Part shown: one piece after another, positions 9,985-20,128 of the stretch
Position numbering within the stretch: position 1 is the first letter of the stretch
Layout of the letters: each line of letters opens with the position of its first letter
Assembly: GCA_026413765.1 (NCBI GenBank)
Contig: JAOAKI010000004.1
Location: 1 to 33,512, forward strand
Source: Microcaldota archaeon
GTDB taxonomy: Archaea > Micrarchaeota > Micrarchaeia > Anstonellales > Anstonellaceae
Reading direction: 5' to 3'
DNA: 33,512 bases
The notes under the pieces: generated by a model
Seen by the model: only the letters and a program-made list of their open reading frames with translations
The model's database searches: none
Told to the model about the DNA's origin: nothing
Made by a program: the position numbers and the translations under genes

Positions 9985-12417
9985 TTACGAGGCGTTTACT
10001 CTCTCAATTGCCACCACTTTCTCATTTTCCTCAAGTTTCATCAACCGAACGCCGCTGGTGTTTCTTCCAATTATTGAGATTTCTTTTGCAGGCATCCTGA
10101 TTATCTTCCCGCCAGATGAAACCACAAGTATCTCGTCTTCATCACTCACTGATAAAATTCCGACGACTTTGCCATTTCTGCCAGCTGTCTTGATATTTTT
10201 CACCCCTTGCCCTCCCCTTGCCTGAAGCCTATAATCAGAAAGCAACGTCCTTTTTCCATATCCGTTTTCAGTCACTGTAAGAAGGGTTGGCGCGTCATCC
10301 ACTGCCATCCCTACGACGCAATCCCCTTTCTTCAGACGGATGCCAATCACTCCCTGACCAGTCCTTCCGATTTCCCTGATTTGCTTTTCTGGAAAGCGTA
10401 TCGCCATCCCTTCGGACGTAGCCAAAATTACTTCTCTTTTTCCATCCGTCTTTTTTGCGTCAATGAGCATGTCCCCTTCTTTCAGAGTGATTGCGATAAT
10501 GCCGCCCTTTCTTGGCCTGCAATATTCAGTCATTTGCGTCCTTTTTATGATCCCATTCTTTGTTACCATGATCAAGTACTCCTCTGGGCTGAAGTCTTTT
10601 GTTTTAACCCATGCGCATACCTTCTCTCCTTCCAATTGCAGCAGGTTGACTATTGCCTTACCCATGGAATATCTCGTTCCAGATGGTATTTTGTATGCCT
10701 TCAGCCAATGTACAATTCCTTTGTCAGTAAAGAACAGCAGATAATCGTGGGTTGAAGCAAGGATGACGTCTTTCACTTGGTCGTCTTCTTTTGTTTCAGA
10801 GCCAATTATTCCCTTCCCCCCGCGCCGTTGGGCTTTGTATTCCATAATCGGGACTCTCTTAATGTATCCGTCTTGCGTGATTATTACTGCAACTTCCTCA
10901 TCTGCAATCAAATCCTCGATTTCAACATCCTCTTCTTCTGCTTCAATGACTTGCGTTTTTCTTTCATCTCCGTATCTTTGCTTGACACCAATCAGCTCAT
11001 CCTTTATTATTTGGTATATGAGTCTTTCGTCAGATAGTACTTTTTGGAGATATTCTATTTTGCGGGCAAGTTCCTCGTTTTCTTCCTTCAATTTTCCAGA
11101 CTCAAGCGCAGAAAGCTTCCTTATTTTCATTTCAAGTATCGCTTCTGCTTGCTTTTCTGTCAGTGAAAACCTGCTTACAAGCTGCTTGAGAGGCTCTTTT
11201 GCAGTTTTTACTATCTGCACAACTTCCTCTATTTTTTCAACCGCCAGAATGAGACCCTCAACAATATGCTTTCTTTCTTTTGCTACTTTCAGCTCAAACA
11301 GGCTCCTTCTCTTCACAATATTTACGCGATGCTCCAAGAACAGCCTTAACAGCTGCTCAAGGCCAAGCGTCTTTGGCTCACCATTCACAAGCGCCACATT
11401 ATTTATCCCAAATGCGCTTTCTAGCTGGGTGTGGGCGTAAAGTTGGTTCAATACAACCTGCGCATTAGCATCTTTTTTTAGCTCTATAAAAATATGCATG
11501 CCCTCCCTGTCTGAGCGGTCGGCAATCTCTGCTATTCCCTCGATCTTTTTGTTTCGTGCAAGTTCCGCGATAGTCTTTACCAGCTCTGCTTTGTTTACTT
11601 GGTATGGAAGCTGGCTGATTATTATTGCCTGCCTTTTGTCTTTTTGTTCGACAATTTCTGCTTTTCCTCTTATCCTGATTATGCCTTTTCCAGTGAGATA
11701 TGCTTCCATCAGCCCTCGTTTGCCTATGATAAATCCGCCTGTCGGAAAGTCTGGCCCCTTTACTATTGCCAAAAGCTCCTCTTTTGTTGTTTGTGGCTTG
11801 TCAATTATCGCAACCAACGCATCCACTATTTCTGCCAGATTATGTGGGGGCATATTGGTAGCCATCCCAACCGCAATTCCAGAAGACCCATTGACAAGCA
11901 GATTGGGTATCTTGCAGGGCAGCACTGTCGGCTCTTTCAAGGTGGCATCAAAATTCAGCGCAAAATCAACTGTTTCCTTGTCAATATCCTCAAGCATTTC
12001 CTCCGCAAATTTAGTCAGTCTTGCTTCTGTATAGCGCATCGCGGCTGGGTTGTCGCCGTCTATGGAGCCAAAATTCCCCTGCCCTTCAATCAATGGATAT
12101 CTCATCGAAAAGTCTTGCGCCATTCTTACCATCGCATCATATATTGCCGCATCTCCGTGCGGATGGTATTTACCGAGGACTTCACCGACAATCCTTGCTG
12201 ATTTTTTAAATGGCTTGTCGTGAGTGTTCGAAAGCTCATACATCGCATAGAGTATTCTTCGGTGGACTGGCTTAAGGCCATCCCTCACGTCAGGAAGCGC
12301 CCTGCCAACAATCACAGACATCGCATAGTCCAGATAAGCAGTCTGCATCTCTCTTTCTACAGCTTTAGGCACTACTGCGCCGCCGCCATCTTGTTGCTTT
12401 TTGTCCATTTTTACCAC
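9985..12417 (-). CDS. gyrA: DNA gyrase subunit A (bacterial type)
   Basis: [83 protein letters not shown] start abuts gyrB TGA; alternative ATG at 12408. Confidence 0.97.
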
Positions 12418-14352
<1,935 letters not shown>

Positions 14353-15479: not shown

Positions 15480-18400
15480 TCACGAGCAGCCAGTAGTTTC
15501 GCCGCAGTCAACGCATACTTGGCAGCTGCCGTTTTGCTTCACCTTCATAGAGCCGCAGCTGGGGCACTGCAGCCCAGTGAATCCCTGAGCTTTTGCGTTT
15601 CTTGCCTTCTCTTCAAAGTCTTCCTCCTCTTTTTGGGGTGCTTCCGCCGCCCTGCCTACAAGCTTGGTCTGCGTTTTTTGCTCTTCGACTCTTGGCAAAG
15701 CTTCATGCTGCGTTTCGCCGTTTATTGTTTTGACATGGACAAAATCTCTGCGGTTCAAATACTCATATCCCAAAACGCGGAACACGTAATCTATTATTGA
15801 TGTTGCGTTCTTTATCGCCTCATGTCCTGTCACCACTCCAGACGGTTCAAAGCGAGTGAAGGTGAAAGTGTCGACAAATTCCTCAAGCGGAACTCCATAT
15901 TGCAGCCCCTTGCTCACTGCGATTGCAAAGCAGTTGAGTAATGCGCGGTAGCCTGCGCCCTCTTTATACATGTCGATAAATATCTCACCTAGCGTCCCAT
16001 CCGGATATTCGCCTGTCTTGAGGTACACTTTATGGCCGCCCACTCTTGCTTCTTGGACAAACCCTCTTCTTTTTGGCGGCAGCTTTCTCCTATACATCCT
16101 GCCTATTATTTTAGATTGCAGCTGGGCAGGGCCAAACGTCTCATCGACGTCTTCAGTAAGTCCCATCAATTCTGAAAGTTCGTCTTCGTCAACATCTGCG
16201 GTGGCATTCAGCGGCTGGGAAAGCTTACTTCCATCCCTATAAATGGCTATGCTCTTGAGCATGTATTTCCAAGATAGAGAATATGCTTGCTTTATGTCTT
16301 CAATTGTGCTTTCGTTTGGCATGTTTATTGTCTTTGAGATCGAGCCGCTGATAAACGGCTGGGCAGCAGCCATCATTTTGATGTGCCCAAGATAAGATAT
16401 GAAGCGCTTGCCCTTTTTGCCGCATTTGCTTGCGCAATCAAATATTGGGTAGTGCTCTTCTTTCAAGTGTGGCGCGCCTTCGATTGTCATCGTCCCGCAG
16501 ACGTATTCGTTTGCTTCCTCAATCTGCTGTTTCGTAAACCCCAACTTAGAAAGCAAATCAAATTTCGGGTCATCTATTTCACTTTGGCTGAACCCAAGCG
16601 TTTTGAGGAAATCTTCCCCAAGAACATATCTGTTAAATGCAAATCTTATATCAAAAGTCTTTGGCAACTCTGCTTCAACTTTTGCTATCTTCTCATAAGT
16701 GAATCCTTTTGCAGTCAGGCTTTGCGGGTTTATATGCGGGCAGCCAGTCAGCGTAGATCTTCCTAATACATATTCTTCTATTTCTTTTATTTGCGAAGCA
16801 GAATAGCCAAGTTTTGCAAGCGCCTTTTTGACCGAGGTGTTGACAATCTTGAAATAGCCGCCGCCCGCAAGCTTCTTGTATTTGACAATCGCAAAGTCAG
16901 GCTCAATTCCAGTGGTGTCGCAGTCCATCTGCAGCCCTATCGTTCCGGTTGGAGCAATCACAGTGACCTGCGCATTCCTGTAGCCGTATTTTTCCCCCAT
17001 CTCATAGGCTAGATCCCAACATTCACGAGCCGCCTTGAGGAGATATTCTGGGCAAAACCTTGGGTCAATACCCATCGGTTTGACAGTGAGCCCTTCATAT
17101 TCTTCAGCTGGCGCATTGTAAGCAGCCCTTCTGTGGTTTCTTATCACGCGCAGCATGTGCTGTCGGTTCCTCTCAAACGCCCTGAATGGCCCAATCTCTC
17201 TAGCCATCTCAGCAGAAGTGGCATATGCCTGGCCGCACATAATTGCAGTTATCGCCCCGCAGATCGCAAGACCTTGCGGGCTTTCATAAGGTATTCCCAT
17301 TATCATCAATAATGTCCCAAGATTTGCATATCCCAAGCCAAGGGTGCGGTACTCAAAACTCCTCCTGGCAATCTCTTTGGATGGGAACTGCGCCATCAAA
17401 ACGGATATCTCAAGCACGATCGTCCAAATCCGCACCGCATGCTTGAATGCTTCCACTTCAAAAACGCCAGTCTTTTCATTATAAAATTTAGCCAAGTTGA
17501 GCGACGCCAAATTGCAGGCAGTATCATCCAGAAACATATATTCTGAGCATGGGTTAGATGCATTTATCCTCCCATCAACTGGGCATGTGTGCCATTCATT
17601 TATGGTGTCATCAAATTGCAGACCTGGATCAGCGCAGCTCCACGCTGCGAATGCTATCTGGTCCCACAACTGCCTTGCCTTCACCTTCTTCATGACGCTT
17701 CCATCAACCCTTGCTATCAAGTTCCAATCAGCATCATTTTCTACCGCCCAAATGAACTTGTTTGATATGCGTACCGAATTGTTGCTATTTTGCCCTGAAA
17801 CAGTCGTATAAGCTTCCGATTCATAGTGCGTGTCAAACACAGGGAAGTCAATTTTTTCCTTGCCTTGTTTTGCAAGCGCCAACGCCCTCAAAATGTAATT
17901 TATAGGCACATTCTTAGCCAACGCTTTTACTATTGCAAGCTTCACCCTCTCGTTTTTTATGTCAGCCGTCTGCTCCTGCTTGACAACCTTCATTATTTCA
18001 TTGAGCGCTTTTGAGCATGCCTTGCTTCCAGCAACCATCGCGGCTACTTTCTGCTCCTCGACTACTTTCCAATTTATGAATTTTTCAATGTCTGGGTGGT
18101 CAATATCTACAATCACCATCTTTGCAGCTCTTCGCGTCGTCCCACCAGATTTTATCGCCCCAGCAGCCCTGTCATATATTTTGAGGAAAGACATTAATCC
18201 GGAAGAATAGCCTCCGCCAGACAGCTTTTCGCCCTCTGCCCGCAGGCAAGAGAAATTAGTTCCAGTGCCAGACCCGTATTTGAAAAGCCTTGCCTCGCGC
18301 AGCACGAGGTCGAATATACCGCCTTCATTTACCAAATCGTCTTTTACCGACTGGATAAAGCAAGCATGCGGCTGAGGATGAGTATATGCATCTTCAGATT

Positions 18401-18956
18401 GCTTTACCTCTCCAGTTATCGGGTCTGCATAATAGTGGCCTTGCGGGCTGCCTTTTATCCCATAAGCAAAAGCAAGCCCAGTGTTGAACCATTGGGGCGA
18501 ATTAGGAGAAGCCATCTGGTGTATGAGCATATATTTTAGCTCTTCTTCAAATGCTTCTGCATCCTCCTTGCTTGCAAAATACCCGTATTTTTCCCCCCAA
18601 TAGCGCCAGCAGCCTGCAAGCCGCTTTACAACTTGTTTCACGCTCTTTTCTGCCCCAAGCAGTATTTTTCCATCTGGTCCTCTTATGGGGTTTCCGAATT
18701 TGTCGTATTGCGGGACCCCTGCCTTTCTGAAATATTTTTGTGCAACGACATCTGTTGCAACTTGCGACCAGCTTTTTGGAACCTCAACATCATTCATTTC
18801 GAATACGACTGAGCCGTCAGCATTCCTTATCACTGACTTTCTCAGCTCATATTCAACAGTATCAAGAGGGTCTATCCCTTCAGTTGTGAAAAAGCGACTT
18901 ATCTTCAGCCCGCCCTGCCTGCTTTCCTGCTGGGCAACAATTGCCGGTTTTTCCAT
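15480..18956 (-). CDS. nrdJ: Adenosylcobalamin-dependent ribonucleoside-diphosphate reductase (class II RNR) with C-terminal Zn ribbon
   Basis: [70 protein letters not shown]-terminal [30 protein letters not shown]. Start chosen at 18956 (RBS-like aaggggtga); the ORF extends to 18992. Confidence 0.95.
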
Positions 18957-19030
18957 CCCGTCACCCCTTCTTTGCAAGCAAACAGAACTCATGAGTTGCT
19001 CTTTTCAGCAAAATCTTTGCTTTGCGAAAA

Positions 19031-19046
19031 ACACAATATATTGTGC
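19031..19046. promoter_or_regulatory. NrdR-box-like palindrome 1 (ACACAATATATTGTGC)
   Basis: Near-perfect match to the NrdR box consensus acaCwAtATaTwGtgt; in the intergenic region of nrdJ. Confidence 0.65.
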
Positions 19047-19062
19047 ATTCCCACAGCCAGAC

Positions 19063-19078
19063 ACACAACCTGTTGTGC
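19063..19078. promoter_or_regulatory. NrdR-box-like palindrome 2 (ACACAACCTGTTGTGC)
   Basis: Second palindrome with the same outer half-sites (ACACAA/TTGTG), 32 bp from box 1. Confidence 0.6.
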
Positions 19079-19177
19079 TTGCGTAGTTTTTCGGATGTTC
19101 AGATTTATAAGCATATTTTTCAGCATTTTTTTCATTCTCTAAGTTGTTTTATGCGAAACAAAACAAATTGCCTTGCC

Positions 19178-20128
19178 ATGCCAAAACTTTATTTAAGCTT
19201 TCTTCGTAAGGACCTTTTGGGTGCCACTGTGACAAAGCAGGTCTTTTCTTCGACGGGTACATTCGCAGTAAAAGCAGGTCTTGCGCAGATGCTCAAGGGC
19301 GGAGTCATAATGGATGTCGTGAATGCCGAGCAAGCCCAATTGGCAGAGCAGGCAGGGGCAGTCGCAGTGATGGCGCTTGAAGCTGTTCCAGCCGACATAC
19401 GAAAAGCAGGCGGTGTTGCAAGGATGGCAGACCCTGCCAAAATCAAAGAGATCAAAGCTGCAGTCACAATACCTGTGATGGCTAAGTGCAGGATAGGGCA
19501 TTTTGTCGAGGCGCAGATACTTGAGGCGCTTGATGTTGACTATATCGATGAATCCGAGGTGCTTACACCCGCAGATTTGGAAAGCCACATAGACAAATGG
19601 TCTTTCAAAGTGCCATTCGTCTGCGGATGCAGGGATCTTGGTGAAGCATTAAGGAGAATCTCAGAAGGGGCCGCAATGCTGAGGACAAAAGGCGAGGCAG
19701 GCACTGGAAACATCGTTGAGGCAGTAAAGCATATCAAGGCAATCAACAGGCAGATCAGCCAGCTGAAATATTCTGATGAAAAAGAACTAGCCCAGGCAGC
19801 ACATCAAATGAGGGTGCCTCTTTCGCTTGTAAAAAAAGTGGTTGAGCTTGGCAGGCTGCCAGTGGTCAATTTCGCTGCCGGCGGAATTGCAACCCCTGCA
19901 GACGCTGCCTTGTGCATGCAGCTTGGATGCGACGGCGTGTTTGTCGGAAGCGGCATCTTCAAATCTTCTGACCCTCAAAGAAGAGCTGAAGCAATTGTTG
20001 AGGCAGTCGCCCACTTTAAAGATCCATTCAGACTTGCAGAGGTTTCGGAGGGTTTGGGCAAGCCTATGGAAGGCGTTGATTTATCTTCACTGAAAGTCGA
20101 AGAGAGATTTGCCCAGAGAGGTATCTGA
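19178..20128 (+). CDS. pdxS: Pyridoxal 5'-phosphate synthase subunit PdxS; start uncertain (19178 ATG, 19217 TTG or 19229 GTG)
   Basis: [116 protein letters not shown]. Confidence 0.97.

Follow-up and report, generated by a model that had tools for sequence, protein, structure and literature searches.

The window analysed here, a stretch of 33,512 nucleotides, comprises bases 1-33512 of a 249-kb contig from a genome identified as archaeal because TFIIB is encoded in the genome and MCM in the window. Within it, two palindromes, 19031-19046 (ACACAATATATTGTGC) and 19063-19078 (ACACAACCTGTTGTGC), separate the ribonucleotide reductase (RNR) gene nrdJ from the divergent gene pdxS. The features of this region are listed below.

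15480..18956, minus strand: nrdJ, adenosylcobalamin-dependent (class II) RNR, 1158 aa (assigned with NCBIfam and Pfam)
19031..19046: putative inner NrdR box (gene-proximal), minus-strand reading GCACAATATATTGTGT; exact palindrome, matched by the profile together with the outer box
19047..19062: inter-box spacer of 16 bp, a length also seen in nearly all archaeal pairs found
19063..19078: putative outer NrdR box (TATA-proximal for nrdJ), minus-strand reading GCACAACAGGTTGTGT; exact palindrome, conserved in the genus
19104..19111, minus strand: predicted nrdJ TATA element CTTATAAA, a consensus match 33 bp upstream of the outer box start
19187..19197, plus strand: putative TATA-like element of pdxS CTTTATTTAAG, ~110 bp from the nearer box, assigned by sequence inspection
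19229..20128, plus strand: pdxS, divergent neighbour, with a probable GTG start at ~19229

NrdJ falls within the class II RNR family, scoring 1881.7 bits against NCBIfam PRK07562 (cut-off 1737) and 603.5 bits against TIGR02504 (cut-off 399.95), and contains the Pfam domains Ribonuc_red_lgC and Ribonuc_red_2_N. A Pfam domain search found no ATP-cone in this protein. An insert at residues 295-382 weakly resembles the N-terminal domain of YebC/TACO1, with scores (23-28 bits) that fall short of the curated cut-offs. Translation likely begins at 18956, with an ATG preceded by a GGGGTGA Shine-Dalgarno sequence; an alternative in-frame ATG upstream, at 18992, was judged less likely.

A preliminary description of this DNA had pointed to paired NrdR-box-like palindromes 32 bp apart and ~80 bp upstream of a class II RNR, and both statements are borne out. 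The palindromes lie 32 bp from centre to centre, about three helical turns, with a 16-bp spacer, and 74 bp separate the end of the inner box from the likely nrdJ ATG. C4 and G13 are conserved in both boxes. Spacers tolerated by bacterial NrdR measure 14-17 or 24-27 bp, and 15-16 bp is typical (PMC12051234); the site thus combines two palindromes, the invariant C/G pair and a spacer within the accepted range. Scans of the window and of the whole 840,152-bp genome showed that these two palindromes are the only zero-mismatch matches to ACACAANNNNTTGTG. Chance palindromes are ruled out, since two exact sites in tandem at 32 bp are far beyond the ~0.26-0.40 matches expected by chance genome-wide. 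Moreover, a 48-position profile of the box pair has the nrdJ-upstream site as its sole full-length match both in the window (E 5e-6) and in the whole genome (E 3e-5). No box pair was detected at nrdR itself in this genome.

A gene for the cognate repressor, for which a genome-wide search had been proposed, is present. It encodes a 150-aa protein at ~C3:150.8-151.2 kb, beside a TFB gene, in which an N-terminal CxxC...CxxC zinc ribbon (PF22811, 68.2 bits) is followed by an ATP-cone (PF03477, 85.4 bits). The protein scores 186.8 bits against the equivalog TIGR00244 (cut-off 124.65), placing it in that family, and matches solved NrdR structures with E 1e-37. In Streptomyces numbering, the four zinc cysteines, D15, R17 and the RRRR arginine run are kept, as are the nucleotide residues V48, K50, E56, F58, K62, F124, V127 and Y128; R51 is replaced by K and Q72 by E, both common substitutions in the family. 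Across 60 Micrarchaeota NrdRs, K50, K62 and Y128 never vary. According to previous work (PMC9110341), D15, R17 and associated residues read DNA, while K50, Y128 and others sense nucleotides. Contamination of the assembly was rejected as the source of nrdR because the gene shares the window's own contig, ~130 kb from nrdJ, and adjoins tfb. Recent single transfer of nrdR into this genome was not supported: a tree, albeit poorly resolved, places NrdR in a family-level Micrarchaeota clade.

Conservation of both boxes and of their 32-bp phasing at nrdJ in relatives, also put forward earlier as a check, extends across the genus and beyond. With the repressor gene present and the boxes kept, neither of the two refuting findings named earlier was encountered. 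All seven genus members in which the region is represented have the pair upstream of nrdJ, as do further genera and families. NrdJ relatives at 79-83% identity are named Candidatus Micrarchaeota. Identity within the genus is 88% for the boxes, 51% for the spacer and 39% for the 40 bp downstream. No boxes were found at nrdJ of G011 and G015, two genomes that possess nrdJ and have no nrdR, and weak boxes lie next to nrdJ in G012 and G013. The NrdR of G012 (L029, L055) carries Glu in place of D15 and the nrdJ boxes of this genome are weak and atypical, so that reader and site could possibly have co-evolved there. Several RNR genes of relatives are interrupted as if by inteins, namely nrdJ of G003, G006, G008, G017, G053 and G055; in the RNR of L315 an intein domain was confirmed.

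The association between box pairs and nrdR was assessed blind, using a sequence-only profile built from 14 box pairs (5 archaeal and 9 from bacterial nrdJ loci) and scanned over whole genomes, with a pair cut-off of E <= 0.0125 in relatives and E <= 0.01 in the phylum sets. Among 59 relatives, a pair was present in 22 of the 32 genomes with NrdR vs 0 of the 27 lacking it. The same held for 295 Micrarchaeota, where NrdR is present in 135 genomes: pairs were detected in 84/135 NrdR-positive and 6/160 NrdR-negative genomes (Fisher p 4e-30, ignoring shared ancestry; p 1e-28 when the five training genomes are left out). A second archaeal phylum, that of a Woesearchaeota bin (G063), gave 77/151 vs 2/43 (p 3e-9, again ignoring shared ancestry), with NrdR present in 151 of its 194 genomes. 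We regard this phylum as archaeal because TFIIB was found in its genomes: 31 of the 32 genomes checked (30 from the second phylum plus the one studied here) contain it, the exception being the Woesearchaeota bin itself. At E <= 0.01, 40-50% of NrdR-positive genomes have no pair, partly because of the strict filters and of incomplete assemblies (e.g., the weak boxes of G012 and G013), and eight genomes contain a pair with no nrdR detected.

An RNR gene or nrdR lies downstream at every site whose target was inspected. Pairs precede nrdR-nrdD operons in nine order-level relatives, and also ATP-cone class II RNR genes. In the second phylum, the pair lies <=400 bp upstream of nrdR in 56 of 76 genomes, and all eight of the other sites inspected have an RNR gene (class I/II, II or III type) downstream. 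The occurrence of pairs before RNRs of several classes indicates that the operator follows enzyme function rather than one gene family. An apparent second target in G010 (C32:14059) was discarded, as it is a near-copy of that genome's own nrdJ upstream region at a contig end. At G030:C10:84451-86286, the nrdD match reads through two in-frame TAA codons, which may reflect decay, an assembly error or another cause.

These data bear on the possibility that nrdJ and nrdR were acquired from bacteria and that the boxes are inert relics of the event through which NrdR no longer represses at an archaeal promoter. NrdJ is indeed ~60% identical to its counterparts in Bacteriovoracaceae and in other bacteria with similar box pairs. 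However, the boxes are kept while spacer and flanks drift, and their distance to the TATA element is fixed (see below). Moreover, the pairs track nrdR, are absent where nrdR is absent (the eight genomes above apart), and precede RNRs of different classes with unrelated promoters. We therefore consider inert relics very unlikely.

The predicted promoter architecture of nrdJ differs from the one initially envisaged, in which AATATATT within box 1 (19031-19046) could serve as the nrdJ TATA element, such that NrdR could cover it and, through the divergent orientation of pdxS, could also affect pdxST. Box 1 does contain AATATATT, but the consensus TATA element CTTATAAA lies instead 33 bp upstream of the outer box and is the better candidate; by sequence, it neither overlaps nor abuts the boxes, as TBP occlusion at nrdJ would demand. 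This distance is conserved: the best TATA-like element lies 31-35 bp before the outer box in 12 of 12 nrdJ promoters with a confident pair, at -33 in most of them. As for pdxS, a TATA-like element of its own lies ~110 bp away from the closer of the two boxes, and the gene does not adjoin nrdJ consistently. In tblastn searches, pdxS is beside nrdJ in G000 (the present genome), G004 and G007 and ~2 kb away in G008; no match turned up close to nrdJ in G003, in G006 or at the remaining loci examined, some of which are on short contigs. The box pair persists at nrdJ loci without an adjacent pdxS. Neither a role of pdxST as co-target nor control of PLP synthesis is supported, and pdxS was judged to stand outside the NrdR circuit. 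Taken as a whole, coverage of a TATA element in box 1 with joint control of pdxST is very unlikely.

The usual spacing between TATA element and start site in archaea was used to place the nrdJ start. On this basis, transcription is predicted to begin at the border of the outer box (~19079-19083), in which case the boxes would cover the predicted start site and leader. A second arrangement is seen elsewhere. In 11 nrdR-nrdD and ATP-cone RNR promoters, a TATA-like element lies 5-8 bp before the outer box; it is the best match in 10 of them and the second best in G030. The operator thus occupies two fixed positions, one at loci L187, L192, L193, L197, L200-L202, L205 and L206 and the other at the nrdJ loci. 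For TBP occlusion, the only plausible setting is the nrdR-nrdD promoters of other Micrarchaeota, in which the TATA element abuts the outer box.

It is also very unlikely that the palindromes act as RNA hairpins in the nrdJ leader, regulating translation or stability. Lying downstream of the predicted start, the boxes would be transcribed, but in nrdR-nrdD promoters the pair abuts the TATA element and most of it precedes any likely start site. In addition, perfect symmetry is missing from many conserved boxes (e.g., ACCCTATATATTGTGG), the invariant positions are those that NrdR contacts (PMC9110341), and pairs co-occur with the NrdR gene.

Based on these findings, we consider it highly probable that the palindromes are a genuine NrdR operator, at which the repressor, carrying dATP and ATP, represses transcription of nrdJ from an archaeal TBP/TFB promoter. 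The nucleotide response, oligomer state and repression are inferred from bacterial NrdR, for which it has been shown that the ATP-loaded form does not bind DNA and that dATP/ATP-loaded tetramers bind it, kinking the DNA at each box (PMC9110341). We propose the following plausible mechanism. When dATP is high, NrdR would be loaded with dATP and ATP and assemble into a tetramer, whose two zinc-ribbon pairs would bind the two boxes. Bound NrdR would bend the DNA over the predicted start site of nrdJ and the ~50 bases transcribed first, thereby blocking either initiation by the archaeal polymerase or its escape from the promoter. Once dATP falls, NrdR loaded with ATP would release the DNA, allowing nrdJ to be expressed. 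No class III RNR was found in this genome. Because NrdJ has no ATP-cone, feedback by dATP on the dNTP supply of this organism may depend on NrdR alone.

The proposed circuit is reminiscent of bacterial NrdR systems such as Streptomyces coelicolor nrdRJ and Escherichia coli nrdHIEF, nrdDG and nrdAB, with which it shares a TIGR00244 repressor, a box consensus with invariant C4/G13, a 15-16-bp spacer, RNRs as target enzymes and frequent autoregulation. It differs in that the archaeal pairs sit on TBP/TFB promoters, at two fixed positions relative to the TATA element. A close parallel is Streptomyces nrdRJ, where NrdR boxes are likewise located at a B12-dependent class II RNR; however, the two genes form one operon there, whereas nrdR and nrdJ are far apart on the same contig here (~130 kb). 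Within archaea, haloarchaeal class I operons with nrdR are already known (PMC3019208). These plasmid nrdR-nrdBA operons (Natronomonas pharaonis PL131 and others; PMC3019208) resemble the present case in having an archaeal NrdR beside RNR genes, but encode a class I RNR from bacterial transfer. Moreover, their NrdRs lack R17, whereas the NrdRs of DPANN archaea keep the DNA and nucleotide residues as well as the boxes. The box-pair profile found no match in the haloarchaeal plasmid nrdR leaders. By eye, these leaders (L303-L307) nonetheless show a box pair that is conserved yet degenerate.

The presence of NrdR in archaea is acknowledged but has been called rare (PMC9110341 and PMC12176259), and a search of the open-access literature turned up no paper dealing with DPANN NrdR or with NrdR boxes in archaea. 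What appears to be new here, judging from the genomes, is a bacterial NrdR system operating on archaeal promoters and common in DPANN archaea. We lean modestly towards the broader view that NrdR, far from being imported only rarely, has long resided in DPANN archaea as a major regulator of RNR, and that it represses basal transcription in two ways set by operator position: a start-site and leader block where the TATA element is 33 bp upstream, and competition with TBP/TFB where it abuts the outer box. If this is true, a repressor known from bacteria would run dNTP feedback on eukaryote-like TBP/TFB promoters across a large share of archaeal diversity. The two positions of the operator would then offer a direct test of how one repressor blocks different steps of archaeal initiation.

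Two further features of the window lie apart from this region. The genes gyrA and gyrB occupy 9985-14337, alongside MCM and other archaeal genes. A ~70-bp tandem repeat (GGGGCACTAAACTGACACAAGCTTCCCCCT...) spans 187-321, directly after a putative intron-containing tRNA gene.
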